From Loxodes magnus (lineage: Eukaryota > Ciliophora > Karyorelictea > Loxodida > Loxodidae), in contig CAMPDV010002415.1 of the NCBI GenBank assembly GCA_946699065.1, positions 1-64,000 on the forward strand: DNA of 64,000 bases, read 5' to 3'. Positions 2,638-45,359 of this stretch are shown here, one piece after another (positions within the stretch are counted from its first letter, which is position 1; each line of letters begins with the position of its first letter). The position numbers and the translations under genes were made by a program. Below the pieces are notes generated by a model, which made no database searches, was not told the DNA's origin, and worked only from the letters and a program-made list of their open reading frames with translations.

Positions 2638-5600
2638 TGTAAAAAGTATGAAGGTGTATTTTTAGGAATGTAATATTGAATCAAATTTTTGGAAATTTGA
2701 AATAAAAGAGGTATAGAGTTAAAAGAGATAAGGTAAAGAGATGTGAAATCATGAGAAGGGAAGAAGTAAGGTATATTTTAAGTGCTAAAGAGTGGTAGAA
2801 AGAAAAAGGTGAAAGAAGTAAAAGGAAAGAAAAAGGAGTTGGAAAGAAGGATTTTTGAACTTAGTGTATTAAGAGGAGTATATTTGGGTATTTAGTGTAT
2901 GTGTAAAAAGTATGAAGGTGTACTTTTAGGAATGTAATATTGAATCAAATTTTTGGAAATTTGAAATAAAAGAGGTATAGAGTTAAAAGAGATAAGGTAA
3001 AGAGATGTGAAATCATGAGAAGGGAAGAAGTAAGGTATATTTTAAGTGCTAAAGAGTGGTAGAAAGAAAAAGGTGAAAGAAGTAAAAGGAAAGAAAAAGG
3101 AGTTGGAAAGAAGGATTTTTGAACTTAGTGTATTAAGAGGAGTATATTTGGGTATTTAGTGTATGTGTAAAAAGTATGAAGGTGTATTTTTAGGAATGTA
3201 ATATTGAATCAAATTTTTGGAAATTTGAAATAAAAGAGGTATAGAGTTAAAAGAGATAAGGTAAAGAGATGTGAAATCATGAGAAGGGAAGAAGTAAGGT
3301 ATATTTTAAGTGCTAAAGAGTGGTAGAAAGAAAAAGGTGAAAGAAGTAAAAGGAAAGAAAAAGGAGTTGGAAAGAAGGATTTTTGAACTTAGTGTATTAA
3401 GAGGAGTATATTTGGGTATTTAGTGTATGTGTAAAAAGTATGAAGGTGTATTTTTAGGAATGTAATATTGAATCAAATTTTTGGAAATTTGAAATAAAAG
3501 AGGTATATGATATAGAGTAAAAGATGTGAAATCATGAGAAGGGAAGAAGTAAGGTATATTTTAAGTGCTAAAGAGTGGTAGAAAGAAAAAGGTGAAAGAA
3601 GTAAAAGGAAAGAAAAAGGAGTTGGAAAGAAGGATTTTTGAACTTAGTGTATTAAGAGGAGTATATTTGGGTATTTAGTGTATGTGTAAAAAGTATGAAG
3701 GTGTATTTTTAGGAATGTAATATTGAATCAAATTTTTGGAAATTTGAAATAAAAGAGGTATAGAGTTAAAAGAGATAAGGTAAAGAGATGTGAAATCATG
3801 AGAAGGGAAGAAGTAAGGTATATTTTAAGTGCTAAAGAGTGGTAGAAAGAAAAAGGTGAAAGAAGTAAAAGGAAAGAAAAAGGAGTTGGAAAGAAGGATT
3901 TTTGAACTTAGTGTATTAAGAGGAGTATATTTGGGTATTTAGTGTATGTGTAAAAAGTATGAAGGTGTATTTTTAGGAATGTAATATTGAATCAAATTTT
4001 TGGAAATTTGAAATAAAAGAGGTATAGAGTTAAAAGAGATAAGGTAAAGAGATGTGAAATCATGAGAAGGGAAGAAGTAAGGTATATTTTAAGTGCTAAA
4101 GAGTGGTAGAAAGAAAAAGGTGAAAGAAGTAAAAGGAAAGAAAAAGGAGTTGGAAAGAAGGATTTTTGAACTTAGTGTATTAAGAGGAGTATATTTGGGT
4201 ATTTAGTGTATGTGTAAAAAGTATGAAGGTGTATTTTTAGGAATGTAATATTGAATCAAATTTTTGGAAATTTGAAATAAAAGAGGTATAGAGTTAAAAG
4301 AGATAAGGTAAAGAGATGTGAAATCATGAGAAGGGAAGAAGTAAGGTATATTTTAAGTGCTAAAGAGTGGTAGAAAGAAAAAGGTGAAAGAAGTAAAAGG
4401 AAAGAAAAAGGAGTTGGAAAGAAGGATTTTTGAACTTAGTGTATTAAGAGGAGTATATTTGGGTATTTAGTGTATGTGTAAAAAGTATGAAGGTGTATTT
4501 TTAGGAATGTAATATTGAATCAAATTTTTGGAAATTTGAAATAAAAGAGGTATAGAGTTAAAAGAGATAAGGTAAAGAGATGTGAAATCATGAGAAGGGA
4601 AGAAGTAAGGTATATTTTAAGTGCTAAAGAGTGGTAGAAAGAAAAAGGTGAAAGAAGTAAAAGGAAAGAAAAAGGAGTTGGAAAGAAGGATTTTTGAACT
4701 TAGTGTATTAAGAGGAGTATATTTGGGTATTTAGTGTATGTGTAAAAAGTATGAAGGTGTATTTTTAGGAATGTAATATTGAATCAAATTTTTGGAAATT
4801 TGAAATAAAAGAGGTATAGAGTTAAAAGAGATAAGGTAAAGAGATGTGAAATCATGAGAAGGGAAGAAGTAAGGTATATTTTAAGTGCTAAAGAGTGGTA
4901 GAAAGAAAAAGGTGAAAGAAGTAAAAGGAAAGAAAAAGGAGTTGGAAAGAAGGATTTTTGAACTTAGTGTATTAAGAGGAGTATATTTGGGTATTTAGTG
5001 TATGTGTAAAAAGTATGAAGGTGTATTTTTAGGAATGTAATATTGAATCAAATTTTTGGAAATTTGAAATAAAAGAGGTATAGAGTTAAAAGAGATAAGG
5101 TAAAGAGATGTGAAATCATGAGAAGGGAAGAAGTAAGGTATATTTTAAGTGCTAAAGAGTGGTAGAAAGAAAAAGGTGAAAGAAGTAAAAGGAAAGAAAA
5201 AGGAGTTGGAAAGAAGGATTTTTGAACTTAGTGTATTAAGAGGAGTATATTTGGGTATTTAGTGTATGTGTAAAAAGTATGAAGGTGTATTTTTAGGAAT
5301 GTAATATTGAATCAAATTTTTGGAAATTTGAAATAAAAGAGGTATAGAGTTAAAAGAGATAAGGTAAAGAGATGTGAAATCATGAGAAGGGAAGAAGTAA
5401 GGTATATTTTAAGTGCTAAAGAGTGGTAGAAAGAAAAAGGTGAAAGAAGTAAAAGGAAAGAAAAAGGAGTTGGAAAGAAGGATTTTTGAACTTAGTGTAT
5501 TAAGAGGAGTATATTTGGGTATTTAGTGTATGTGTAAAAAGTATGAAGGTGTATTTTTAGGAATGTAATATTGAATCAAATTTTTGGAAATTTGAAATAA

Positions 5601-8600
5601 AAGAGGTATAGAGTTAAAAGAGATAAGGTAAAGAGATGTGAAATCATGAGAAGGGAAGAAGTAAGGTATATTTTAAGTGCTAAAGAGTGGTAGAAAGAAA
5701 AAGGTGAAAGAAGTAAAAGGAAAGAAAAAGGAGTTGGAAAGAAGGATTTTTGAACTTAGTGTATTAAGAGGAGTATATTTGGGTATTTAGTGTATGTGTA
5801 AAAAGTATGAAGGTGTATTTTTAGGAATGTAATATTGAATCAAATTTTTGGAAATTTGAAATAAAAGAGGTATAGAGTTAAAAGAGATAAGGTAAAGAGA
5901 TGTGAAATCATGAGAAGGGAAGAAGTAAGGTATATTTTAAGTGCTAAAGAGTGGTAGAAAGAAAAAGGTGAAAGAAGTAAAAGGAAAGAAAAAGGAGTTG
6001 GAAAGAAGGATTTTTGAACTTAGTGTATTAAGAGGAGTATATTTGGGTATTTAGTGTATGTGTAAAAAGTATGAAGGTGTATTTTTAGGAATGTAATATT
6101 GAATCAAATTTTTGGAAATTTGAAATAAAAGAGGTATAGAGTTAAAAGAGATAAGGTAAAGAGATGTGAAATCATGAGAAGGGAAGAAGTAAGGTATATT
6201 TTAAGTGCTAAAGAGTGGTAGAAAGAAAAAGGTGAAAGAAGTAAAAGGAAAGAAAAAGGAGTTGGAAAGAAGGATTTTTGAACTTAGTGTATTAAGAGGA
6301 GTATATTTGGGTATTTAGTGTATGTGTAAAAAGTATGAAGGTGTATTTTTAGGAATGTAATATTGAATCAAATTTTTGGAAATTTGAAATAAAAGAGGTA
6401 TAGAGTTAAAAGAGATAAGGTAAAGAGATGTGAAATCATGAGAAGGGAAGAAGTAAGGTATATTTTAAGTGCTAAAGAGTGGTAGAAAGAAAAAGGTGAA
6501 AGAAGTAAAAGGAAAGAAAAAGGAGTTGGAAAGAAGGATTTTTGAACTTAGTGTATTAAGAGGAGTATATTTGGGTATTTAGTGTATGTGTAAAAAGTAT
6601 GAAGGTGTATTTTTAGGAATGTAATATTGAATCAAATTTTTGGAAATTTGAAATAAAAGAGGTATAGAGTTAAAAGAGATAAGGTAAAGAGATGTGAAAT
6701 CATGAGAAGGGAAGAAGTAAGGTATATTTTAAGTGCTAAAGAGTGGTAGAAAGAAAAAGGTGAAAGAAGTAAAAGGAAAGAAAAAGGAGTTGGAAAGAAG
6801 GATTTTTGAACTTAGTGTATTAAGAGGAGTATATTTGGGTATTTAGTGTATGTGTAAAAAGTATGAAGGTGTATTTTTAGGAATGTAATATTGAATCAAA
6901 TTTTTGGAAATTTGAAATAAAAGAGGTATAGAGTTAAAAGAGATAAGGTAAAGAGATGTGAAATCATGAGAAGGGAAGAAGTAAGGTATATTTTAAGTGC
7001 TAAAGAGTGGTAGAAAGAAAAGGAGGTGAAAGAAGTAAATAGGAAAGAAAAAGGAGTTGGAAAGAAGGATTTTGTGAACTTAGTGTATGAAAGTGCTAAA
7101 GAGTGGTAGAAAGAAAAAGGTGAAAGAAGTAAAAGAAAGAAAAAGGAGTTGGAAAGAAGGATTTTTGAACTTAGTGTATTAAGAGGAGTATATTTGGGTA
7201 TTTAGTGTATGTGTAAAAAGTATGAAGGTGTATTTTTAGGAATGTAATATTGAATCAAATTTTTGGAAATTTGAAATAAAAGAGGTATAGAGTTAAAAGA
7301 GATAAGGTAAAGAGATGTGAAATCATGAGAAGGGAAGAAGTAAGGTATATTTTAAGTGCTAAAGAGTGGTAGAAAGAAAAAGGTGAAAGAAGTAAAAGGA
7401 AAGAAAAAGGAGTTGGAAAGAAGGATTTTTGAACTTAGTGTATTAAGAGGAGTATATTTGGGTATTTAGTGTATGTGTAAAAAGTATGAAGGTGTATTTT
7501 TAGGAATGTAATATTGAATCAAATTTTTGGAAATTTGAAATAAAAGAGGTATAGAGTTAAAAGAGATAAGGTAAAGAGATGTGAAATCATGAGAAGGGAA
7601 GAAGTAAGGTATATTTTAAGTGCTAAAGAGTGGTAGAAAGAAAAAGGTGAAAGAAGTAAAAGGAAAGAAAAAGGAGTTGGAAAGAAGGATTTTTGAACTT
7701 AGTGTATTAAGAGGAGTATATTTGGGTATTTAGTGTATGTGTAAAAAGTATGAAGGTGTATTTTTAGGAATGTAATATTGAATCAAATTTTTGGAAATTT
7801 GAAATAAAAGAGGTATAGAGTTAAAAGAGATAAGGTAAAGAGATGTGAAATCATGAGAAGGGAAGAAGTAAGGTATATTTTAAGTGCTAAAGAGTGGTAG
7901 AAAGAAAAAGGTGAAAGAAGTAAAAGGAAAGAAAAAGGAGTTGGAAAGAAGGATTTTTGAACTTAGTGTATTAAGAGGAGTATATTTGGGTATTTAGTGT
8001 ATGTGTAAAAAGTATGAAGGTGTATTTTTAGGAATGTAATATTGAATCAAATTTTTGGAAATTTGAAATAAAAGAGGTATAGAGTTAAAAGAGATAAGGT
8101 AAAGAGATGTGAAATCATGAGAAGGGAAGAAGTAAGGTATATTTTAAGTGCTAAAGAGTGGTAGAAAGAAAAAGGTGAAAGAAGTAAAAGGAAAGAAAAA
8201 GGAGTTGGAAAGAAGGATTTTTGAACTTAGTGTATTAAGAGGAGTATATTTGGGTATTTAGTGTATGTGTAAAAAGTATGAAGGTGTATTTTTAGGAATG
8301 TAATATTGAATCAAATTTTTGGAAATTTGAAATAAAAGAGGTATAGAGTTAAAAGAGATAAGGTAAAGAGATGTGAAATCATGAGAAGGGAAGAAGTAAG
8401 GTATATTTTAAGTGCTAAAGAGTGGTAGAAAGAAAAAGGTGAAAGAAGTAAAAGGAAAGAAAAAGGAGTTGGAAAGAAGGATTTTTGAACTTAGTGTATT
8501 AAGAGGAGTATATTTGGGTATTTAGTGTATGTGTAAAAAGTATGAAGGTGTATTTTTAGGAATGTAATATTGAATCAAATTTTTGGAAATTTGAAATAAA

Positions 8601-11600
8601 AGAGGTATAGAGTTAAAAGAGATAAGGTAAAGAGATGTGAAATCATGAGAAGGGAAGAAGTAAGGTATATTTTAAGTGCTAAAGAGTGGTAGAAAGAAAA
8701 AGGTGAAAGAAGTAAAAGGAAAGAAAAAGGAGTTGGAAAGAAGGATTTTTGAACTTAGTGTATTAAGAGGAGTATATTTGGGTATTTAGTGTATGTGTAA
8801 AAAGTATGAAGGTGTATTTTTAGGAATGTAATATTGAATCAAATTTTTGGAAATTTGAAATAAAAGAGGTATAGAGTTAAAAGAGATAAGGTAAAGAGAT
8901 GTGAAATCATGAGAAGGGAAGAAGTAAGGTATATTTTAAGTGCTAAAGAGTGGTAGAAAGAAAAAGGTGAAAGAAGTAAAAGGAAAGAAAAAGGAGTTGG
9001 AAAGAAGGATTTTTGAACTTAGTGTATTAAGAGGAGTATATTTGGGTATTTAGTGTATGTGTAAAAAGTATGAAGGTGTATTTTTAGGAATGTAATATTG
9101 AATCAAATTTTTGGAAATTTGAAATAAAAGAGGTATAGAGTTAAAAGAGATAAGGTAAAGAGATGTGAAATCATGAGAAGGGAAGAAGTAAGGTATATTT
9201 TAAGTGCTAAAGAGTGGTAGAAAGAAAAAGGTGAAAGAAGTAAAAGGAAAGAAAAAGGAGTTGGAAAGAAGGATTTTTGAACTTAGTGTATTAAGAGGAG
9301 TATATTTGGGTATTTAGTGTATGTGTAAAAAGTATGAAGGTGTATTTTTAGGAATGTAATATTGAATCAAATTTTTGGAAATTTGAAATAAAAGAGGTAT
9401 AGAGTTAAAAGAGATAAGGTAAAGAGATGTGAAATCATGAGAAGGGAAGAAGTAAGGTATATTTTAAGTGCTAAAGAGTGGTAGAAAGAAAAAGGTGAAA
9501 GAAGTAAAAGGAAAGAAAAAGGAGTTGGAAAGAAGGATTTTTGAACTTAGTGTATTAAGAGGAGTATATTTGGGTATTTAGTGTATGTGTAAAAAGTATG
9601 AAGGTGTATTTTTAGGAATGTAATATTGAATCAAATTTTTGGAAATTTGAAATAAAAGAGGTATAGAGTTAAAAGAGATAAGGTAAAGAGATGTGAAATC
9701 ATGAGAAGGGAAGAAGTAAGGTATATTTTAAGTGCTAAAGAGTGGTAGAAAGAAAAAGGTGAAAGAAGTAAAAGGAAAGAAAAAGGAGTTGGAAAGAAGG
9801 ATTTTTGAACTTAGTGTATTAAGAGGAGTATATTTGGGTATTTAGTGTATGTGTAAAAAGTATGAAGGTGTATTTTTAGGAATGTAATATTGAATCAAAT
9901 TTTTGGAAATTTGAAATAAAAGAGGTATAGAGTTAAAAGAGATAAGGTAAAGAGATGTGAAATCATGAGAAGGGAAGAAGTAAGGTATATTTTAAGTGCT
10001 AAAGAGTGGTAGAAAGAAAAAGGTGAAAGAAGTAAAAGGAAAGAAAAAGGAGTTGGAAAGAAGGATTTTTGAACTTAGTGTATTAAGAGGAGTATATTTG
10101 GGTATTTAGTGTATGTGTAAAAAGTATGAAGGTGTATTTTTAGGAATGTAATATTGAATCAAATTTTTGGAAATTTGAAATAAAAGAGGTATAGAGTTAA
10201 AAGAGATAAGGTAAAGAGATGTGAAATCATGAGAAGGGAAGAAGTAAGGTATATTTTAAGTGCTAAAGAGTGGTAGAAAGAAAAAGGTGAAAGAAGTAAA
10301 AGGAAAGAAAAAGGAGTTGGAAAGAAGGATTTTTGAACTTAGTGTATTAAGAGGAGTATATTTGGGTATTTAGTGTATGTGTAAAAAGTATGAAGGTGTA
10401 TTTTTAGGAATGTAATATTGAATCAAATTTTTGGAAATTTGAAATAAAAGAGGTATAGAGTTAAAAGAGATAAGGTAAAGAGATGTGAAATCATGAGAAG
10501 GGAAGAAGTAAGGTATATTTTAAGTGCTAAAGAGTGGTAGAAAGAAAAAGGTGAAAGAAGTAAAAGGAAAGAAAAAGGAGTTGGAAAGAAGGATTTTTGA
10601 ACTTAGTGTATTAAGAGGAGTATATTTGGGTATTTAGTGTATGTGTAAAAAGTATGAAGGTGTATTTTTAGGAATGTAATATTGAATCAAATTTTTGGAA
10701 ATTTGAAATAAAAGAGGTATAGAGTTAAAAGAGATAAGGTAAAGAGATGTGAAATCATGAGAAGGGAAGAAGTAAGGTATATTTTAAGTGCTAAAGAGTG
10801 GTAGAAAGAAAAAGGTGAAAGAAGTAAAAGGAAAGAAAAAGGAGTTGGAAAGAAGGATTTTTGAACTTAGTGTATTAAGAGGAGTATATTTGGGTATTTA
10901 GTGTATGTGTAAAAAGTATGAAGGTGTATTTTTAGGAATGTAATATTGAATCAAATTTTTGGAAATTTGAAATAAAAGAGGTATAGAGTTAAAAGAGATA
11001 AGGTAAAGAGATGTGAAATCATGAGAAGGGAAGAAGTAAGGTATATTTTAAGTGCTAAAGAGTGGTAGAAAGAAAAAGGTGAAAGAAGTAAAAGGAAAGA
11101 AAAAGGAGTTGGAAAGAAGGATTTTTGAACTTAGTGTATTAAGAGGAGTATATTTGGGTATTTAGTGTATGTGTAAAAAGTATGAAGGTGTATTTTTAGG
11201 AATGTAATATTGAATCAAATTTTTGGAAATTTGAAATAAAAGAGGTATAGAGTTAAAAGAGATAAGGTAAAGAGATGTGAAATCATGAGAAGGGAAGAAG
11301 TAAGGTATATTTTAAGTGCTAAAGAGTGGTAGAAAGAAAAAGGTGAAAGAAGTAAAAGGAAAGAAAAAGGAGTTGGAAAGAAGGATTTTTGAACTTAGTG
11401 TATTAAGAGGAGTATATTTGGGTATTTAGTGTATGTGTAAAAAGTATGAAGGTGTATTTTTAGGAATGTAATATTGAATCAAATTTTTGGAAATTTGAAA
11501 TAAAAGAGGTATAGAGTTAAAAGAGATAAGGTAAAGAGATGTGAAATCATGAGAAGGGAAGAAGTAAGGTATATTTTAAGTGCTAAAGAGTGGTAGAAAG

Positions 11601-14600
11601 AAAAAGGTGAAAGAAGTAAAAGGAAAGAAAAAGGAGTTGGAAAGAAGGATTTTTGAACTTAGTGTATTAAGAGGAGTATATTTGGGTATTTAGTGTATGT
11701 GTAAAAAGTATGAAGGTGTATTTTTAGGAATGTAATATTGAATCAAATTTTTGGAAATTTGAAATAAAAGAGGTATAGAGTTAAAAGAGATAAGGTAAAG
11801 AGATGTGAAATCATGAGAAGGGAAGAAGTAAGGTATATTTTAAGTGCTAAAGAGTGGTAGAAAGAAAAAGGTGAAAGAAGTAAAAGGAAAGAAAAAGGAG
11901 TTGGAAAGAAGGATTTTTGAACTTAGTGTATTAAGAGGAGTATATTTGGGTATTTAGTGTATGTGTAAAAAGTATGAAGGTGTATTTTTAGGAATGTAAT
12001 ATTGAATCAAATTTTTGGAAATTTGAAATAAAAGAGGTATAGAGTTAAAAGAGATAAGGTAAAGAGATGTGAAATCATGAGAAGGGAAGAAGTAAGGTAT
12101 ATTTTAAGTGCTAAAGAGTGGTAGAAAGAAAAAGGTGAAAGAAGTAAAAGGAAAGAAAAAGGAGTTGGAAAGAAGGATTTTTGAACTTAGTGTATTAAGA
12201 GGAGTATATTTGGGTATTTAGTGTATGTGTAAAAAGTATGAAGGTGTATTTTTAGGAATGTAATATTGAATCAAATTTTTGGAAATTTGAAATAAAAGAG
12301 GTATAGAGTTAAAAGAGATAAGGTAAAGAGATGTGAAATCATGAGAAGGGAAGAAGTAAGGTATATTTTAAGTGCTAAAGAGTGGTAGAAAGAAAAAGGT
12401 GAAAGAAGTAAAAGGAAAGAAAAAGGAGTTGGAAAGAAGGATTTTTGAACTTAGTGTATTAAGAGGAGTATATTTGGGTATTTAGTGTATGTGTAAAAAG
12501 TATGAAGGTGTATTTTTAGGAATGTAATATTGAATCAAATTTTTGGAAATTTGAAATAAAAGAGGTATAGAGTTAAAAGAGATAAGGTAAAGAGATGTGA
12601 AATCATGAGAAGGGAAGAAGTAAGGTATATTTTAAGTGCTAAAGAGTGGTAGAAAGAAAAAGGTGAAAGAAGTAAAAGGAAAGAAAAAGGAGTTGGAAAG
12701 AAGGATTTTTGAACTTAGTGTATTAAGAGGAGTATATTTGGGTATTTAGTGTATGTGTAAAAAGTATGAAGGTGTATTTTTAGGAATGTAATATTGAATC
12801 AAATTTTTGGAAATTTGAAATAAAAGAGGTATAGAGTTAAAAGAGATAAGGTAAAGAGATGTGAAATCATGAGAAGGGAAGAAGTAAGGTATATTTTAAG
12901 TGCTAAAGAGTGGTAGAAAGAAAAAGGTGAAAGAAGTAAAAGGAAAGAAAAAGGAGTTGGAAAGAAGGATTTTTGAACTTAGTGTATTAAGAGGAGTATA
13001 TTTGGGTATTTAGTGTATGTGTAAAAAGTATGAAGGTGTATTTTTAGGAATGTAATATTGAATCAAATTTTTGGAAATTTGAAATAAAAGAGGTATAGAG
13101 TTAAAAGAGATAAGGTAAAGAGATGTGAAATCATGAGAAGGGAAGAAGTAAGGTATATTTTAAGTGCTAAAGAGTGGTAGAAAGAAAAAGGTGAAAGAAG
13201 TAAAAGGAAAGAAAAAGGAGTTGGAAAGAAGGATTTTTGAACTTAGTGTATTAAGAGGAGTATATTTGGGTATTTAGTGTATGTGTAAAAAGTATGAAGG
13301 TGTATTTTTAGGAATGTAATATTGAATCAAATTTTTGGAAATTTGAAATAAAAGAGGTATAGAGTTAAAAGAGATAAGGTAAAGAGATGTGAAATCATGA
13401 GAAGGGAAGAAGTAAGGTATATTTTAAGTGCTAAAGAGTGGTAGAAAGAAAAAGGTGAAAGAAGTAAAAGGAAAGAAAAAGGAGTTGGAAAGAAGGATTT
13501 TTGAACTTAGTGTATTAAGAGGAGTATATTTGGGTATTTAGTGTATGTGTAAAAAGTATGAAGGTGTATTTTTAGGAATGTAATATTGAATCAAATTTTT
13601 GGAAATTTGAAATAAAAGAGGTATAGAGTTAAAAGAGATAAGGTAAAGAGATGTGAAATCATGAGAAGGGAAGAAGTAAGGTATATTTTAAGTGCTAAAG
13701 AGTGGTAGAAAGAAAAAGGTGAAAGAAGTAAAAGGAAAGAAAAAGGAGTTGGAAAGAAGGATTTTTGAACTTAGTGTATTAAGAGGAGTATATTTGGGTA
13801 TTTAGTGTATGTGTAAAAAGTATGAAGGTGTATTTTTAGGAATGTAATATTGAATCAAATTTTTGGAAATTTGAAATAAAAGAGGTATAGAGTTAAAAGA
13901 GATAAGGTAAAGAGATGTGAAATCATGAGAAGGGAAGAAGTAAGGTATATTTTAAGTGCTAAAGAGTGGTAGAAAGAAAAAGGTGAAAGAAGTAAAAGGA
14001 AAGAAAAAGGAGTTGGAAAGAAGGATTTTTGAACTTAGTGTATTAAGAGGAGTATATTTGGGTATTTAGTGTATGTGTAAAAAGTATGAAGGTGTATTTT
14101 TAGGAATGTAATATTGAATCAAATTTTTGGAAATTTGAAATAAAAGAGGTATAGAGTTAAAAGAGATAAGGTAAAGAGATGTGAAATCATGAGAAGGGAA
14201 GAAGTAAGGTATATTTTAAGTGCTAAAGAGTGGTAGAAAGAAAAAGGTGAAAGAAGTAAAAGGAAAGAAAAAGGAGTTGGAAAGAAGGATTTTTGAACTT
14301 AGTGTATTAAGAGGAGTATATTTGGGTATTTAGTGTATGTGTAAAAAGTATGAAGGTGTATTTTTAGGAATGTAATATTGAATCAAATTTTTGGAAATTT
14401 GAAATAAAAGAGGTATAGAGTTAAAAGAGATAAGGTAAAGAGATGTGAAATCATGAGAAGGGAAGAAGTAAGGTATATTTTAAGTGCTAAAGAGTGGTAG
14501 AAAGAAAAAGGTGAAAGAAGTAAAAGGAAAGAAAAAGGAGTTGGAAAGAAGGATTTTTGAACTTAGTGTATTAAGAGGAGTATATTTGGGTATTTAGTGT

Positions 14601-15423
14601 ATGTGTAAAAAGTATGAAGGTGTATTTTTAGGAATGTAATATTGAATCAAATTTTTGGAAATTTGAAATAAAAGAGGTATAGAGTTAAAAGAGATAAGGT
14701 AAAGAGATGTGAAATCATGAGAAGGGAAGAAGTAAGGTATATTTTAAGTGCTAAAGAGTGGTAGAAAGAAAAAGGTGAAAGAAGTAAAAGGAAAGAAAAA
14801 GGAGTTGGAAAGAAGGATTTTTGAACTTAGTGTATTAAGAGGAGTATATTTGGGTATTTAGTGTATGTGTAAAAAGTATGAAGGTGTATTTTTAGGAATG
14901 TAATATTGAATCAAATTTTTGGAAATTTGAAATAAAAGAGGTATAGAGTTAAAAGAGATAAGGTAAAGAGATGTGAAATCATGAGAAGGGAAGAAGTAAG
15001 GTATATTTTAAGTGCTAAAGAGTGGTAGAAAGAAAAAGGTGAAAGAAGTAAAAGGAAAGAAAAAGGAGTTGGAAAGAAGGATTTTTGAACTTAGTGTATT
15101 AAGAGGAGTATATTTGGGTATTTAGTGTATGTGTAAAAAGTATGAAGGTGTATTTTTAGGAATGTAATATTGAATCAAATTTTTGGAAATTTGAAATAAA
15201 AGAGGTATAGAGTTAAAAGAGATAAGGTAAAGAGATGTGAAATCATGAGAAGGGAAGAAGTAAGGTATATTTTAAGTGCTAAAGAGTGGTAGAAAGAAAA
15301 AGGTGAAAGAAGTAAAAGGAAAGAAAAAGGAGTTGGAAAGAAGGATTTTTGAACTTAGTGTATTAAGAGGAGTATATTTGGGTATTTAGTGTATGTGTAA
15401 AAAGTATGAAGGTGTATTTTTAG
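2638..15423. repeat. 264-bp tandem satellite array, about 48 copies
   Basis: Units of exactly 264 bp repeat head to tail: the marker AAAAAGTATGAAGG recurs at 2641, 2905, 3169, 3433 and onward to the last partial unit near 15407. Most copies look identical. Exceptions are a one-base variant in the second copy (near 2920), a 255-bp unit at 3433-3687 (9 bp shorter) and a 359-bp unit at 6856-7214 that contains an extra 95 bp of internally duplicated, slightly diverged sequence. The unit contains 72 G but only 4 C on the + strand, a GC skew near 0.9. The array ends mid-unit at 15423 and is flanked by unrelated AT-rich DNA. Such homogeneous satellites are typical of centromeric or other heterochromatic germline DNA. 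No function is shown by the sequence. With TAA/TAG as Gln, one minus-strand frame has no stop (264 = 88 codons), probably only because TCA is rare on the + strand. Confidence 0.97.
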
Positions 15424-36790: not shown

Positions 36791-37168
36791 CCTATATTTT
36801 AACTATTAGGCTCGCTTACAAATTATAATGTCTTTAGATTATTCATTACCATAAAACCTATTTTTATCATGAGTCACTATATTTTTTTCTTCTAAGGATA
36901 ATTCTAAATCAATGATATTTTAGACTTCACAGTAATCTCTTATCGAAGTGTGGGTAAATTAAATTATATTTTTGTAGCTTTACTCTTCTATCTATATCAA
37001 ACATCCTATATAACTTTATTTTTATTGAATTACTCTCTTCACTTTTAATTTCATTCTTCAAAATTTCTAGCAGGCACTGATATATTCTATAGTATATGGA
37101 TGCTTTTACCTTATTTGAAAGCGCTGTTTATTGCCTTATATTATCCCAATTCATCATGCGCGTCAGAT

Positions 37169-37966
37169 AATAATAATAATAATAATAAGCAAAAGTAATA
37201 AAAGTTTAGTCTCCTCTAGATTTTCAACCAGGTTTTTGCTACCATTTTTTTAGCGTGGGTAGAAAGACTGAGAATCTTCTGTTTTTTATGCAAATAATTT
37301 TTTCTTGTATACCCCTGTTTGAGTAATTCAGAGTCTGCTGATCATGTTTAACGTTCTTCGTTGTTCTTTTATCTAAATTTACCTTTATTGATCGCAATTT
37401 TGTAATAAGTGCCACTTTGATTTGCAGTAATAACATTATTTAATTTGTCTTTTCTTTAATCTATTCAGAAATAATTTTTTCAAATTAGCTAATTCTTTTG
37501 AGTAAGTCTATATTAATCTTTACGTCATTCTATTTATGGACTTTTGCTTATGTAAAAACTTTTTAAATTATCATATTTTGTTCTTGCTTAAAATTCGATT
37601 GAGATTATTCATATAGTTACTATTTCGTGACTAAATTATTCTAAATCAATTGTCGTCTAATTATAAGTAACTCATTATTTTGATCTTTGCTAGTATTCAT
37701 TAGTTCTCTTAGTTTTTCCCCTTGATTGTAAATTGTTTCCTAATAATTATGTATTATTGTTTTCATTTATTCAAGTTATATTTGTAATTATGATTAATTT
37801 TACACCTTTATTAGATTTGTCTCTATTGTTCTGACTATGACTTTTCCTTCAGATGAGGAACTTTATTTATCTTCTTTCTTTTGTTGTCTCGCGTTTGTTT
37901 CGCTGCTTTCCTTTTGCGTTTTTAATTAGATTTTGGAAAGGCGAATAGAATATACAATTTTTTTTA
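37169..37966 (-). mobile_element. ORF1-only retroposon nested in the NACHT pseudogene
   Basis: Read on the minus strand, the element begins at 37966 with an A-rich start and ends at 37169 in a TTA/TAA microsatellite (37167-37189 on the + strand), the same ends as the 34.9-kb copy. It is flanked by a diverged 12-bp duplication (37157-37168 and 37967-37978; TGACGTG versus TGACGCG core, about 9 of 12 identical). Its insertion interrupts the Walker B region of the NACHT paralog, so it is younger than that duplicate gene. Confidence 0.75.
37200..37950 (-). pseudogene. zinc-knuckle ORF1-like protein inside the nested retroposon
   Basis: The frame aligns to the 34.9-kb protein: SIRLSKIQLKTQK with NIRLSKKQQRKTR, SSSSEGKVIV with SSSSEGKVMV, NQGEKLRELMN with NQGEKIQELMN, and QLYEQSQSNF with QLYEMSQTNF. 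The knuckle CYYCKSKWHLLQNC (CX2CX4HX4C) is present but one base out of phase with the long frame, so there is a frameshift just upstream of it. After the knuckle, the position that is TGA in two other copies is TAA here. The ATG is lost (TTG). A Trp codon of the 34.9-kb copy (SKL-W-ILS) corresponds to TGA here. Confidence 0.6.
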
Positions 37967-38774
37967 TACACGTCAAATAAAAACAATATTTTATAAACTT
38001 AAAATTTTATTTCTCTTAAATTGTATTATTTTAAAAAGCAAATTCTTTTAATTTATTTTCAAATGCTTTAATGGTTGGAAGATATACTAATATATATAAA
38101 TATTCATTATTATACTCTAGATACTTTAAAGTTAGAACTTTTAAAAATAAATTTTTCCATAACCAGAATCTCAAAAATTAATAATCTAGTTTACCTATCA
38201 TTATCTAAAAATTTGATAATTTCAACTGGAGATCGTCCTTAGCCATAAACTTGGATTTAGAGAACATTATAAACTTAAGAAATATTCTTATTTCATTATA
38301 TATCATCTTTTTTATTTTTTATCATATTTTAATAGATACTTTTTTTACATTTTAAAGCAAGTCAGTTCTATTATATTGTTTAAGTAAATTAAAAAGCAAG
38401 CTCTAGATAAGTTAAAATTCAAGTTTATATAAAGTCTTAATTTCCAAATGACACAATATTTTAGAATTATAATAATCCATCTTCGATATATTACCTTGCT
38501 AGATCATAAGCAAGAATATCTAAGATATTTAACATTAAAATTGTTTTTTTATGGATTTTTTCATTTATCTATCCATGACTCCTTATAAAGAAATTCTTTA
38601 AGATGGAGATAACATTAGTATCCATAATTCCAACTCAAAAATACAAAGAAAACTGCCTTCTGGCAATTTAGACATTACAGAACTTTCAAAATAGTGATTT
38701 AATATATTATTTGGACAATTTTAAATTTAAAAATTAGATTTTTTATCTTAAAGTGTTAAACAAACTTTTAAAAT

Positions 38775-39037
38775 TTTATTCCGTTCCAAAAAATTTTGTT
38801 ACGTCCCAAAAAAATTTATTCCGTCCCAAAAAATTTTGTTCCGTCCCAAAAAATATTGTTCCGTCCCAAAAAAATTTTGTTCCGTTCCAAAAAAATTTTG
38901 TTCCGTCCCAAAAAATTTTGTTCCGTCCCAAAAAAAATTGTTCCGTTCCAAAAAATTTTGTTCCGTTTTGTTCCGTCCCAAAAAATTTTGTTCCGTCCCA
39001 AAAAATTTTGTTCCGTCCCAAAAAAAATTGTTCCGTC
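38775..39037. repeat. about 20-bp minisatellite, cluster 1
   Basis: About 13 copies of a 19-21-bp unit with core TTTTGTTCCGTCCCAAAAAA, varying in A-run length and in CCC versus TCC. Because the unit length varies, several frames on both strands stay open and give repetitive peptides. These are not genes. Confidence 0.9.
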
Positions 39038-39051
39038 ACTAAAAACTCATG

Positions 39052-39080
39052 TAGTGTAAAACGCTGAGCAAAAAAACAAA
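39052..39080 (+). repeat. conserved tail after minisatellite cluster 1
   Basis: TAGTG, then AAACGCTGAGC, then AAAAAAACAAA. The same tail follows cluster 2 at 39576-39604 with two differences, so the minisatellite and its tail form one duplicated module. Confidence 0.7.
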
Positions 39081-39305
39081 AATAAATTTTTCACGTTTTT
39101 TGGCATTTTTTTCTACTTTTTATCTCTTCACTTTTACAATTTTTAAATTTTTTCAGAAAAAACATACTTTACTATATTACGCCTTTTGACTTTTTTTCTT
39201 CGCTTTTTCACTCCGCTTTTCATTTCAAAACATTATTTTACTCAATCATACTTTTTTGACCTTATTGAAAAAAAAAACTTTTTAAAACTCATTTCTTTTT
39301 TAACC

Positions 39306-39562
39306 CAAAAAATTTTGTTCTGTCCCAAAAAATATTGTTCCGTCCCAAAAAAATTTTGTTCCGTATTTTGTTCCGTCCCAAAAAAATTTTGTTCCGTCCC
39401 AAAAAATTTTATTCCGTCACAAAAAATTTTATTCCGTCACAAAAAATTTTATTCCGTCACATTCCGTCAAAAAAATTATTCCGTCACAAAAAATTTTATT
39501 CCAAAAAAATTTATTCCTTCCCAAAAAATTTTATTCCGTCACAAATTATTTTAGTCCGTCAA
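39306..39562. repeat. about 20-bp minisatellite, cluster 2
   Basis: Second cluster of the same unit as 38775-39037, more degenerate toward the right (ATTCCGTCAC forms). It is followed by the same tail sequence at 39576-39604. Confidence 0.88.
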
Positions 39563-39689
39563 AAAAAATCTCCTATAGTGCTAAACGCTGAGCAAAAAAA
39601 CAAATTTTTTATTTTCTCATTTTTTTCACACTATTACATACCAAATTCAAAAAAAACTTGCACACTCATAACCTAACATACCCAAATAT

Positions 39690-39990
39690 CCAAATACCCT
39701 ACATACCCTACATACCCCATACCCATACCCACATACCCACATACCCACATACCCACATACCCACATACCCACATACCCACATACCCACATACCCACATAC
39801 CCCACATACCCACATACCCACATACCCACATACCCACATACCCACATACCCACATACCCAAATACCCAAATACCCACATACCCACATACCCACATACCCA
39901 CATACCCAAATACCCAAATACCCAAATACCCAAATACCCACATACCCACATACCCACATACCCAAATACCCAAATACCCAAATACCCACA
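39690..39990. repeat. 8-bp C-rich array (ACATACCC / AAATACCC)
   Basis: About 38 octamers in blocks of two variants, CACATACC-type and AAATACCC-type, with a few unit-length irregularities (for example CCCCATACCCATACCC near 39715). The + strand has essentially no G. The minus strand is a regular GGGTATGT/GGGTATTT array. Its repetitive frames on both strands are artefacts of the repeat. Confidence 0.95.
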
Positions 39991-40486
39991 TAAATATCTT
40001 CTTCCAAATTCAAAAAAAAACCTTTCCTTTCTCTCCACCTAAACACTTAACTCTTCAATAAAAAAAAATACTCACCACACTCACATACTTTATTTTCAAT
40101 CCATTTAAATTCTATAATTTAATTTATATTTATATTTATTCACTTATGATTGCTTAATACTTTATTTCTCACACTTTCTCTAATTTTAATATTTCTCTTT
40201 TTGAATTCAAATACTACACTAATTTATCCCTTTTAATAACCTCAAACACTAAATGTTTTCAATTTTAGTTTGTTATTTTTCACACACCCTTTCTTAAATA
40301 CTTTTAACTACTATCTTTATTTCCAACTCTCTTTATATTACTCAATTAACTTTTTAAAACACTTATTATCTAACACTATACATACAACTTGTCTTATTAA
40401 ATACTTTTAATCAAAAAAAATTATAACTTATAATTTACTTATCTTAATTCAATTATTATTATTTGTTAAAATTTATTCAAGTCTCA
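39991..40486. other. G-poor, C/T/A-rich spacer downstream of the NLR-like gene
   Basis: This is the region just 3' of the minus-strand NLR-like gene. The + strand is markedly poor in G over several hundred bases, continuing the strand asymmetry of the repeats to its left. No gene recognised. Confidence 0.5.
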
Positions 40487-43400
40487 TCACAATGAAAGAT
40501 ACCTGTCTCCCATTAGTCTCATATTCCTCTACTCCATTGCCACTCCTTCAAATTCACATTGATGCACCTTCAAACCATGCCTTCCTATCATCCTCTTTAA
40601 CACATAATCCCGATGATCCTTTGCTAACTCCCATATCTTTATTGTTTTATCACCACTTCCTGATATTAAATACTTAGAGTCACTTGATAATACCAAAGAC
40701 CAAACATAAGAAGTATGACCCTCTAATGTTCTTATAAGCTCATATGTTTACATGTCCCATATCATTATTGTTTAGTAACTTCCAGATATTAAATACTTAG
40801 AGTCACTTGATAATACCAGAGAAAGAACATCATAAGTATGACCCTCTAATGTTCTTATAAGTTCATATGTTTACATGTCCCATATCCTTATTGTTTTATC
40901 CTCACTCCAGATATTAAATACTTAGAGTCACTTGATAATACCAGAGATCTAACAGTATAAGTATGACCCTCTAATGTTCTTATAAGCTCATATGTTTACA
41001 TGTCCCATATCACTATTGTTTTATCATAACTTCCAGATATTAAATACTTAGAGTCACTTGATAATACCAGAGAAGTAACAATAGAAGTATCCTCTAATGT
41101 TCTTATAAGCTTGTATGTTTACATGTCCCATATCCTTATTCTTTTATAACTTCCAGATATTAAATACTTAGAGTCACTTGATAATACCAGAGATTTAACA
41201 GACCAAGTATGACCCTCTAATGTTCTTATAATCTCATATGTTTACATGTCCCATATCCTTATTGTTGCATCACGACTTCCAGATATTAAATACTTAGAGT
41301 CACTTGATAATACCAGAGAAGAAACAGAACCAGTATGACACTCTAATGTTATTATAAGCTCATATGTTTACATGTCCCATATCCTTATTGTGTTATCAGC
41401 ACTCCCAGATATTAAATACTTAGAGTCACTTGATAATACCAGAGAAAGAACACCAGAAGTATGACTTTATAGGGGCTTAGTAAGATTATCTACCTACATG
41501 TCCCATATCCTTATTGTTTTATCATCACTTCCAGATATTAAATACTTAGAGTCACTTGATAATACCAGAGAAGTAACACCAGAAGTATGACCCTCTAATG
41601 TTCTTATAAGCTCATATGTTTACATGTCCCATATCCTTATTGTTTTATCATCACTTCCAGATATTAAATACTTAGAGTCACTTGATAATACCAGAGATTT
41701 AACAGACCAAGTATGACCCTCTAATGTTCTTATAAGCTCATATGTTTACATGTCCCATATACTTATTGTATTATCTAAACTTCCCGATATTAAATACTTA
41801 GAGTCACTTGATAATACCAGAGAATTAACATCAGAAGTATGACCCTCTAATGTTCTTATAAGCTCATATGTTTACATGTCCCATATCACTATTGTGTAGA
41901 AACTTCCAGATATTAAATACTTAGAGTCACTTGATAATACCAGAGAAGTAACATAATCAGTATGACCCTCTAATGTTCTTATAAGCTCATATGTTTACAT
42001 GTCCCATATCCTTATTGTTTTATCATCACTTCCTGATATTAAATACTTAGAGTCACTTGATAATACCAGAGAAGTAACAGACCTAGTATGACCCTCTAAT
42101 GTTCTTATGATCTCATATGTTTACATGTCCCATATCATTATTGTTTCACTTCCAGATATTAAATACTTAGAGTCACTTGATAATACCAGAGAATAAACAA
42201 TAGAAGTATGACCCTCTAATGTTCTTATAAGCTCATATGTTTACATGTCCCATATCCTTATTGTTTTATCCTTACTTCCTGATATTAAATACTTAGAGTC
42301 ACTTGATAATACCAGAGATTTAACATCAGAAGTATGACCCTCTAATGTTGGCATTTAACCAAAATTAACCTAACTCATATTTGCACCATTGAATTTACAA
42401 TTCCGTAACCATGCTCCTCTAAAATTCACCCTTGATAAATTAGCACCACTCATATCACAACCATCAAACACCGAATCACTCAAATCCGCCCCAGGTACTT
42501 AGATTGCCCGAAAATCAGTCATCTACGTAAACTGGTAATCCATCCAATTCAATATTGTTATACAATTAGCACCCACTATTTATAAAGCTTTATTAGATCT
42601 TGTCCACTTCACTATCTCCAATAAATTTTATTAAAACTAAACCGAACTATCAATCTCCCTTATAAACTACTAGATCTCCTTATTGTCCACTATCGAATAT
42701 CTATTTATTTCATGAGCTTCTATTGAATTTATGCTATTTTAAAAATTTAAGACTAAATTTACTATATTCCTTGCCACATAGTAATCCCTTATCGATGCAT
42801 GAATAAACTCAAACCTCTTTTAACCATTTTCCTCTTTTATCTATATCAAACATCCTATGTGGTTGGAACTCTCAGTTATTTTCTTTATTCATTCTATATT
42901 TGTTTTTTCCAAACCTTCCCAGTTTACCTAACCAGTTAATAATTACCATGATGCCTCTATTTATATATCTTCGAAAGTCTCTAAATACTCTCCGATTTCA
43001 TTATTTTTTTTATTTAATTTTTTAACTTTTATTCAGTTTTATCATTTCATTTATTTATAAAGATCTCATATATCTTTGCCCTTTACACCTTTTTGTCCAC
43101 TCCTCTCCTCAAATATTCTATTATTTTTTCCTCACTCATACATATATATAACATAAAAGGATTATTTAGAATTTCCATTAAACCCGGAATACTTTAGATG
43201 ATGCTCATTTACTCTTTTACCTTTTCAATAGTTTCCTTTTGCTACTCCTATTAATTTGCATTTTGAATCTGCTTTCCTATAACTAACTTTATATATTACT
43301 CTATCTAACTTTTATCAAAAGGCTTAATATATAACTCCTCCAACTCCTATACCTAAGCTCTTTCATTTTTAAAATGAACAAAATAATCCTTATAATTTTT

Positions 43401-45359
43401 ATCAGTCAATGCATAATTGGTTCTACAAGTTACTATATACTTTGCATACGGATATTTAAGGTTTAATTGATTATTAGCTATTATACTATTATAATTTCCC
43501 AACTCGTCATAGGCATCAAATAGAAAAAACATTTTCCTAAACATCAAATTTTCATTCTTTGTAATTTGATTGTTTTTTAAAGCTGTCTCTATTAACTTTT
43601 CTTCATATTATTTAATGGTTGGAAGATAAACGTATATCGGTAGTCAGTCATGCTTCTACTCCAGATACTTATATGCTAGAGTTTTCAGAAATAGAGATTT
43701 TCCTGAACCTGAATCTCCCAAAAGTAATAATCCCGTTTTATCTTCACTGTCTAAAAAGTTCTAAATTTTGCTTTCAAGATTGATTTATTCCTTAGAATTA
43801 GGACTAGGAGCACATAATAAACTTATGTAATATTCCTACTTTTCTTAAATCTCATTTTACAAATAGTTTTTCATATTCTAATATATTTTATTATCTATAC
43901 CCTTTAAGGCCAACCAATTCTCCTCCATATTTTAGGTAAACTAAGTAATATGGTCCGAATTCTTTAGTATTTCTATTACTATCTATTGTTCCCTAACATT
44001 TTAACTTAAGCTTTCATTCTTTTGCTTAAATACTCTCTCCTTGTAAGTTGTAGCAACTTAGTTCTTGTCAATGCTTAGTTCTAATAATGATTTCAAAGCA
44101 AAGTATCGAATCTACCAATCTTTATCCTTACACAATTGCTCTAGCAGCTAGCACGATTCCTTAACTAATTCTGGAGAAGCTTTAGGATTTCTAATCATGT
44201 ACTTCAAAAGTTAACATGCTCTAAATCTTAGGTCCAACTTTTCTTTCAAGACGAGGCTTTTAAATTATTCAAATGTTTCTTATGAATATTTAATTACCAA
44301 GTCATAGGTGAGGGCATCTAGGTATCTTATTCTAACTATTTTTTTAAGGTGAATTTTGGAATTTATTTTCTCAGTTCCCCATACAATGAATTCCTTTATT
44401 ATGGAGATCGCATCAGTATCGATAGCCCCAATTCCAAAGGATAAAGCAACTGCCCATTAAGCAACCTTTAGAATTTTGCAGAATATTCCGAAGTAATCAT
44501 TTTCTTTATTGTCTGGAATATTCTTCAATATCATCTAACTGTATCTTAAGTAAAAATCTAACTCTGGTCCGCCTATTCTCTTTATATTTACTAATTTTAA
44601 TCCAGCTTCTATTTTTTACTCAAGATACTTTTTCGTTTCAGCACTTATGAAGAATTCATTACTTTTATTCTTTTCCTCACCTTTAGAAGAGCTTTACTCG
44701 TTCTTCTAAAGAAACATGTCTAATAACTCAGGAAGATTTTGTACAAGTTACACCTTTAAGAGTTAAGACCAACCTTCAGCATATTAATGAGAAACTATTT
44801 CTATAAATTGCTTTATAAGCACCAAAGGATCATTTAGTTTGATCAACTTATTTTTTGGAATGGTTTAAATTCCTTGTAGAACTAGTTCCATCTTTTACTA
44901 GCTTAAACCCTCTTTTAAGAGGTTTAATCCTTTTTGATAAATCTCTTAGTCTTCAGTTCCTAAAACTAGTTACTGAGGCTAAGTAGTATTTATATTGTTT
45001 GAAGTTTACTACGTCACCTAAGAGTTTTAGATTTTTGGTTATTGAGATTTAGTAACATCAGCTACTTTAGCACTCCCACATCCCCCTCCCTTCAGTTTCA
45101 TACTTTTCTAGAATTTAAAGTTTTAGATTTATTTGATCCGCACTGCTCCTTAATAAGAAGTCATCTATAAGCTTTCTTTTAGATAATTTGTTTCGTTTAT
45201 CTAAAACTCTTTAACATCTGGTATTTCTACGTTTACCAGATAAGGATAATTTTGAATCAAGCTGTAACTTTCAGTACCTTATTAGTATCGTAAGGCATTT
45301 TCTGCTATTTGTCCTTGAATATACTCTTCCATTAGTCTTGGTAAAGTTTTATTATCCAT
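40487..45359 (-). pseudogene. NLR-like NACHT / pentapeptide / WD40 protein, frame broken
   Basis: Read with TAA/TAG as Gln from ATG 45359, this is a gene of about 1624 codons. The N-terminal about 540 residues are helical and include HEAT-like stretches (IRYFALKSLLELS). Residues 548-555 are the P-loop GDSGSGKS and about 611-620 the Walker B strand MFFLFDAYDE, together a NACHT-type STAND NTPase. Further on come a conserved FIHASIRDYYVAR, then pentapeptide-like repeats (GADLSDSVF, GANLSRVNF), then 14 WD40 repeats and a short tail ending at TGA 40487. STAND proteins are NTP-driven switches that oligomerise when the sensor repeats bind a ligand. As read, the frame has TGA at 43644-43646, 43047-43049 and 42889-42891, plus one-base deletions in an A8 run (about 43012) and in a WD repeat (about 40905). 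All three TGAs would fit Trp (for example IYEIFINK-TGA-NDK). It is either a recent pseudogene or, if UGA is Trp and the two deletions are assembly errors, an intact gene. The N-terminal domain and partners are unknown. Confidence 0.85.
40670..42350 (-). repeat. 14 near-identical WD40 repeats with hypervariable codons
   Basis: Markers CACTTGATAATA occur at 40681, 40804, 40929, 41055, 41175, 41301, 41427, 41553, 41679, 41805, 41928, 42054, 42174 and 42300. Spacing is 126 bp (42 residues) except for in-frame 120 and 123 bp units and one 125-bp unit carrying a frameshift. The scaffold is almost invariant in DNA and protein: SLVLSSDSKYLISGS, then IWDMQTYELIRTLEGHT. Variation is concentrated in HT-x-x-V-x-SL (SG/T, YD/L, YT/R, WS/K, GS/S, SD/N, DY/T, RS/T, SI/Y, SD/K), in the residues after LISGS, and at one residue before IW (R, V, M, S, K). 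One unit (41461-41500) has a divergent blade, DNLTKPLQSHT. Confidence 0.95.

Follow-up and report, generated by a model that had tools for sequence, protein, structure and literature searches.

What holds fourteen tandem WD40 repeats nearly identical at the DNA level while a few of their codons differ from repeat to repeat, and what kind of gene carries such an array in a ciliate? The locus that raises the question lies in the first 64,000 nucleotides of contig CAMPDV010002415.1 of Loxodes magnus, a stretch with a G+C content of 24.2% that is referred to here as the window (contig C2415). The answer that we consider likely is a family of NLR-like receptors, in which a NACHT domain, a pentapeptide segment and a double propeller are joined, and which diversifies by gene conversion together with diversifying selection. 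The evidence for this reading, and for the explanations that compete with it, is presented below, beginning with the copy in the window.

Architecture of the window gene

Features of the gene are collected in Table 1. With TAA and TAG read as glutamine and TGA as tryptophan, the domains follow one another as a helical N-terminal part, NACHT, a pentapeptide segment and 14 WD40 units, so that the superstructure-forming repeats are C-terminal, downstream of NACHT.

Table 1. Features of the NACHT-WD40 gene, in window coordinates, listed from the N-terminal to the C-terminal end
Feature	Position	Strand	Remarks
Whole gene	about 45455, or further upstream, to 40484	minus	ends in double TGA at 40484-40489
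Helical N-terminal part, weakly HEAT/ARM-like	43900..45100 (limits approximate)	minus	HEAT match under cut-off
NACHT-type STAND NTPase, by homology	43290..43727	minus	P-loop GDSGSGKS at about 43695-43718; TGA codons in frame
Second frame break	42990..43045 (exact place approximate)	minus	NACHT-to-array distance 1 nt under common length
Pentapeptide-repeat segment (VPGADLSDSVFDGCDMSGANLSRVNFRGAWLRNCKFNGANMSQVNFGQM)	42352..42498	minus	Pfam PF00805 E 2.4e-16 in paralog C2076
14 WD40 units, 126-bp period	40604..42348	minus	Pfam PF00400 E 3.5e-130
Diverged junction of units 7/8 (VDNLTKPLQS)	41464..41493	minus	present in paralogs too
1-nt deletion in unit 12, breaks frame	40905..40907	minus	unit length 125
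C-terminal tail, TGA TGA at end	40484..40603	minus	25-base tail pattern recurrent in genome

TAA and TAG are glutamine codons in the karyorelict code, which agrees with the window gene. UGA serves as stop or as tryptophan (PMC11441545), and the in-frame TGA codons of this gene fit tryptophan. Two of them align with tryptophan in protein P0121, one of these likewise in P0123, and one aligns with tyrosine in P0012; the same codons recur across paralogs, and on these grounds their reading as stops was rejected.

The first-pass annotation, made from the window sequence alone, had called the product a NACHT/pentapeptide protein, and both domain names stand. The pentapeptide match is above the Pfam cut-off in C2076. 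The Pfam NACHT match is under the cut-off of 26.7 bits, both in the window (22 bits, E 1.6e-4) and in paralogs (26.5 bits in C2076, 22.7 bits in another), and support for it comes from a homologous protein whose NACHT match is clear: the NACHT part of the window gene aligns with P0012 (32% over 276 aa, E 7e-33) and with P0121 (E 1e-28), whose own NACHT match scores 38.8 bits. The assignment of a NACHT NTPase domain with a P-loop is thus carried by homology to P0012 and P0121. The genome has 31 NACHT matches above the cut-off, all of them on other contigs and outside this receptor family. For the N-terminal part, only weak HEAT-type matches were obtained, of 17.8 bits in the window (at about 44076-44147) and 23.2 bits in C2076, against a cut-off of 23.5. 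A GGGCGS motif occurs after MGLK or MKLK ahead of the helical domain, both in the N-terminal part of the window gene and at about position 3100 in L029 (C2076), and could mark lipidation or a ubiquitin-like end.

The WD40 units start, on the minus strand, at 42348, 42222, 42102, 41976, 41853, 41727, 41601, 41475, 41349, 41223, 41100, 40977, 40852 and 40729, and are 120-126 bp long. The length of the bc loop differs between units in whole codons, with unit 12 as the exception. Their alignment bears out the fourteen WD units on a frozen scaffold that had been described from first inspection. The interval then given, 40670-42350, takes in nearly the whole array and cuts off the final part of unit 14. 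Near-identity had been said to extend to silent sites; the scaffold is frozen as described, with some silent differences in it (pS 0.063 and pN 0.047 in the core). The variable sites had been named correctly, as the two residues after GHT (codons 6 and 7), the one before SL (codon 9), those after LISGS (codons 25 and 27) and the one before IW (codon 30). Per-codon entropy, the check proposed at the outset, is 1.81-2.85 bits at these six codons and at most 0.99 bit at all others. The six codons hold 393 of the 617 pairwise amino-acid differences among the 14 units, or 393 of the 464 within codons 4-33, and just one of the 117 silent pair differences, the other 116 falling elsewhere. Variation is therefore neither spread at random over the blade nor dominated by silent changes, either of which the first-pass annotation had named as grounds for abandoning the idea.

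The 14 units are predicted to form two seven-blade propellers, with the VDNLTKPLQS junction as the predicted linker between them. The best match among solved structures, found with seven units of a paralog, is Npun_R6612 (PDB 2ymu, with the record name 'WD-40 repeat protein'), in which 14 repeats make two propellers (PMC5587647); this is a bacterial protein, and the comparison concerns the WD part alone. HET-E has also been modelled as two seven-blade propellers (PMC12222747).

Two breaks of one nucleotide each interrupt the frame of the window copy, one in unit 12 and the other between NACHT and the downstream pentapeptide part. An intron at the second break, near 43.0 kb, was considered and rejected, as comparison with paralogs shows a 1-nt loss. 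Because of its two breaks, the window copy is probably a pseudogene, although the breaks may instead reflect polishing error. The copy would then be either a pseudogene still inside the pool of exchanging sequences or an imperfectly assembled gene.

Two observations concern the 3' side of the gene. The degenerate remains of another NACHT gene of this family occupy 36928-38682 on the minus strand, with 69% DNA identity over 435 bp and protein fragments 53% and 42% identical; no WD array was seen beside it. Just 3' of the gene, at 38770-39569 and 39676-39992, degenerate 20-bp repeats of the AAAATTTTGTTCCGTCCCAA type occur along with a microsatellite of the ATACCCAC type.

A family of related loci

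A search of the assembly of 705,730,643 bases shows that the window copy, besides being frame-broken, is a member of a large family, and on both counts the findings go beyond the first reading. A 28-base core of the unit has 1,010 matches in the genome at up to three mismatches, and its reversed control has none. The 25-base pattern of the C-terminal tail has 92 matches at up to three mismatches, 63 at up to two and 54 at up to one, again with none for the control. Scoring 40 of the 1,718 initial candidates yielded 39 further arrays, mostly 84-92% identical. Forty-one loci were read, comprising 40 arrays and 605 units.

Exactly 14 units are found in 33 of the 41 loci, a count that includes near-identical copies (23 14-unit loci are left after their removal) and that comes from one assembly and a search favouring the length of the window array. 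The other arrays have 11, 11, 15, 18, 18 and 22 units, and an array of 52 units on C2076 was counted as two loci. Change in repeat number, which had been expected from the first reading, thus appears exceptional. The VDNLTKPL junction after unit 7 recurs in paralogs. Among eight further tail sites, read by eye, an array of 14 units is present at three (its end is broken at one of them), and arrays of 7 and of at least 15 units at one each; of the remaining three, one is broken and two are array-less relics. Four of these eight sites are impaired in some way, L071 and L072 being the relics and L075 and L078 being frame-broken.

In the 52-unit array of C2076, 22 of 28 comparisons between units 24 apart show no difference, and from this it follows that block duplication also occurs, unless C2076 is mis-assembled. 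Some contigs look like haplotypes of each other, as do C501 and C2602, which are 99.8% alike, and for this reason the loci outnumber the true genes. For the second array of C953, relative to C501/C2602, allelic replacement was considered and rejected, since flanks only 93% alike mark that array as a paralog. On six contigs (C479, C821, C1102, C1156, C1457 and C1460), a tail site has a GTGACTATGG-type partner about 27-29 kb away in the opposite orientation, which suggests a large duplicated segment; two of these partners were read (L071 and L072) and are relics without an array.

With so many impaired copies, the family might be thought dead or decaying, kept uniform by gene conversion and yielding no product, its pattern being the fossil of past selection. 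The window copy and L015, which has one frame break in its NACHT region, are both frame-broken, and to these are added the four impaired tail sites and the degenerate NACHT relic at 36928-38682. We nevertheless consider this explanation unlikely. A single frame runs from NACHT to the array in 14 of the 16 loci compared, the window copy and L015 being the exceptions, where L017-L019 count as near-identical copies and L021 is covered over a shorter stretch. Unit 12 of the window shows the only unit spacing in 41 loci that is not a multiple of three. The gene on C2076, with TGA read as tryptophan, is open in one frame across 1,074 upstream codons and all 52 units. Finally, the scaffold core has a pN/pS of 0.29 (23 arrays, as specified in the next section).

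Probable selection and exchange at the variable codons

Site statistics were obtained with near-identical copies and locus L055 left out, which applies to the representative units, to pN/pS and to the first linkage run. For pN/pS, the last unit was dropped from each of the 23 14-unit arrays, leaving 299 units from which 6,000 unit pairs were sampled. At the six codons the ratio is 4.24, compared to the scaffold value given above. The WD units are near-identical, with a mean scaffold identity of 0.953-0.960. Across 604 units (one locus-edge unit left out, with fewer units for codons 25-41 and only 9-nt loops for codons 25-27), entropy is 2.97 bits at codon 6, 3.23 at codon 7, 2.75 at codon 9, 3.61 at codon 25, 2.16 at codon 27 and 1.53 at codon 30; codon 2, at the unit junction, is the one other codon to reach 1.53 bits. 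The 442 representative units give 1.5-3.6 bits at the six codons. Nucleotide diversity at these codons is 0.472, 0.606 and 0.226 for codon positions one, two and three, and silent differences among pairs with the same residue amount to 0.002-0.095, where 0.48-0.63 would be expected from the codon use of one gene body, that of C2076.

These values bear on a simpler account by relaxed constraint, in which loops drift freely, folding holds the scaffold and no selection for diversity operates. The variable codons do fall in predicted loops. Moreover, nine repetitive WD40 proteins with 6-12 repeats each (cyanobacterial, fungal and Paramecium proteins among them, taken from search matches by crude motif extraction) vary likewise at positions 6, 7, 9, 25 and 27, with at most 0.72 bit at position 30. 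Free drift, however, would bring pN/pS to about 1 and leave the third base no less variable than the other two. It is disfavoured because the observed ratio is far higher, the third base is nearly frozen and silent alternatives are rare, and we regard it as improbable. As position 30 hardly varies in the nine proteins, variability at codon 30 seems to be peculiar to the Loxodes family.

Counting methods point instead to diversifying selection at codons 7, 9, 25 and 27. The same four codons are reported to be under positive selection in the HNWD genes of Podospora (PMC1805685, PMC2873952), and all four are among the six most variable in Loxodes, for which the chance is 1.3e-4 if six of 42 codons are drawn at random. 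The likeness to Podospora noted at first inspection thus holds site for site. Published WD40 geometry, on which our placement is based, has top-face hotspots at R1-2, R1 and D-1 (PMC3419727); by our own alignment to that scheme, codons 7, 9 and 25 are these three hotspots, and most of the six codons should lie at the top face of the propeller.

Whether the arrays might be products of assembly, with repeats mis-joined or mis-polished, has to be weighed as well. Assembly of tandem repeats is difficult, low-complexity repeats are suspected in the genome paper itself to be mis-assembled (PMC11441545), polishing errors could make single-base breaks, and the block-duplicated array of 52 units is suspect. 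An array of 14 units with the same junction and the same tail nevertheless comes back at many separate loci whose variable codons differ, in a genome built from long accurate reads (PMC11441545), and an artefact of this kind is very unlikely.

The variable codons are organised in patches. Codons 6, 7 and 9 form 159 distinct trios in the 322 units of the 23 14-unit arrays, compared to 219 +/- 4.8 if they were independent. Linkage inside a patch is strong (z 17, 8.5 and 8.0), while linkage between patches, whether of the same unit or of adjacent units, is near nil (z about 1); modest values are seen for the loop against codon 30 (z 3.6) and for adjacent trios (z 3.1). An apparently strong link between neighbouring units (z 19) was set aside, as it came mainly from internally duplicated arrays and dropped to about z 3 without them. 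Identity at the variable codons is 0.231 for units of the same index in different arrays, barely above the 0.226 for units of different indices, and 0.267 within an array.

Swaps of whole patches are seen directly among the copies on C953, C2632 and C3196, for example where CGT and ACT at codons 7 and 9 become TGG and AAT. C953 and C2632 differ at none of 1,749 upstream bases and at 11 of 1,734 bases in the array (p 0.0005), and 8 of these 11 changes fall at the six codons; their repetitive 3' flanks are about 4% different, more than the arrays. Such swaps, seen where the upstream flanks are identical, together with the high pN/pS and the nearly frozen third base, uphold the description of the system as rapidly diversifying, within the limit that some copy sets lack array changes focused on the six codons. 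The six codons hold 3 of 17 nucleotide changes in the pair L044/L047, none of 10 in L045/L046 and one of 3 in L026/L032, and L017 and L019 have identical arrays with flanks that differ at 3 of 1,500 and 8 of 1,362 bases. From these sets it follows that conversion also carries scaffold variants and that the array is not always the first part to diverge. Flanks of the C501/C953 pair differ at 7 of 1,799 and 10 of 1,499 bases.

Candidate sources for the swapped patches are present in the genome. When 16 alternative states were tested, 14 turned up in a different array, embedded in identical stretches of 36-123 nt, and two in a different unit of the array itself, in stretches of 115 and 84 nt; the shared scaffold inflates these lengths. 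Scaffold variants move too, as seen for TCT/GAC at codon 17 in three units. The limitation of variation to few codons might recall a targeted mutator, for instance a diversity-generating retroelement, that writes the variable codons; this is the least probable explanation given both the existing copies of the alternative states and the movement of scaffold variants. On a larger scale, likeness between two NACHT clades rises from about 60% to 91-100% some 500-600 bp ahead of the array and stays there, so that the clades have a homogenised 3' module in common. This pattern points to concerted evolution between loci, and gene conversion would be the simplest cause of both the patches and the homogenisation.

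The receptor family, if it diversifies by conversion and selection, could work as follows. The array would serve as sensor in one copy of an extensive NLR-like family, whose proteins combine a helical, weakly HEAT/ARM-like stretch at the N-terminus with a NACHT domain as the putative STAND switch, followed by a pentapeptide spacer and a predicted pair of seven-blade WD40 propellers. Exchange and overwriting of units by gene conversion, within and between loci, would keep the scaffold uniform, while selection would hold the six codons diverse, most of them toward the top face of the propeller, and these travel in short patches of several codons. If HET-D/HET-E serve as a guide, a ligand touching the propellers would free the NACHT switch and thereby trigger an N-terminal output; the family may have a role against parasites or other non-self. 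A more far-reaching version, offered tentatively and in our estimate unlikely, is a combinatorial receptor system: from a pool of about a thousand blades with pre-formed multi-codon words, frequent ectopic gene conversion would feed mostly 14-blade double propellers, perhaps in connection with the formation of new macronuclei, and cells or lineages would differ in repertoire.

Relation to known systems

The HNWD/NWD genes of Podospora anserina (het-d, het-e and het-r) resemble the Loxodes family in joining NACHT to near-identical WD40 units that vary at codons 7, 9, 25 and 27, and, as described for them, in concerted evolution within and between loci and in having broken members in the pool. 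The Loxodes family, known from sequence alone, differs in its dozens of loci, its ciliate host, its pentapeptide spacer, the extra variable codons 6 and 30, and a unit number that is mostly 14, with 14 uniform units where Podospora has 11 plus 3 cryptic ones. Because no match to the HET domain was found in the N-terminal parts scanned, in the window and in paralogs, the receptor family is not classed as an HNWD gene but only as one that works like it. Fungal NLRs with high internal conservation, more generally, have tandem sensor repeats of more than 85% identity with hypervariable sites (PMC4986451); the paper describes fungi, and protist, ciliate and pentapeptide are absent from its text.

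A search with the NACHT part gave 14 matches of 25-34% identity, of which the three that are named all belong to Mortierella or Linnemannia. These NACHT proteins, along with P0121, P0012 and P0123, are related to the NACHT part. In both P0012 and P0123, NACHT is followed by pentapeptide and WD, as in Loxodes, but their WD scaffolds are less uniform than those of Loxodes. Several matches carry the ARM-like domain PF23948; the pairwise match to P0121 leaves the ARM domain of that protein uncovered.

Among ciliates, the 90-bp-exon LRR genes of Tetrahymena are alike in forming a large family with repeat shuffling, for which a parallel to plant innate immunity has been suggested, and they differ in having LRR rather than WD40 repeats, introns that split the units and mostly purifying selection (PMC6564038). 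In the same account, WD40 is one of the leading domains in the species-specific genes of Tetrahymena (PMC6564038). The literature searched, in which subscription journals were mostly outside, held no report of a ciliate family such as the present one, and the main text of the Loxodes genome paper (PMC11441545), supplements aside, makes no mention of NLR, WD40 or gene families. While fungi already illustrate the principle, the host, the scale, the architecture and the mostly 14-blade frame appear, to our knowledge, to be new.

If the proposed reading is true, a free-living single-celled eukaryote only distantly related to fungi, plants and animals has an expanded and actively diversifying NLR-like repertoire. 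The frame of two propellers with six variable codons would then offer a readable code of residues, order and ligand. The rate and the route of diversification are directly measurable, because C953 and C2632 are identical over their 1,749 upstream bases yet differ in their patches. In the published annotation of L. magnus, gene predictions were compared against tandem-repeat regions; masking of tandem repeats may conceal such genes.

Elsewhere in the window, positions 2638-15423 contain two long tandem arrays with a unit of 264 bp, in about 17 and 32 copies and with 99% matches. Minus-strand frames of 1,423 and 2,760 codons, in the ciliate code, are open across them.
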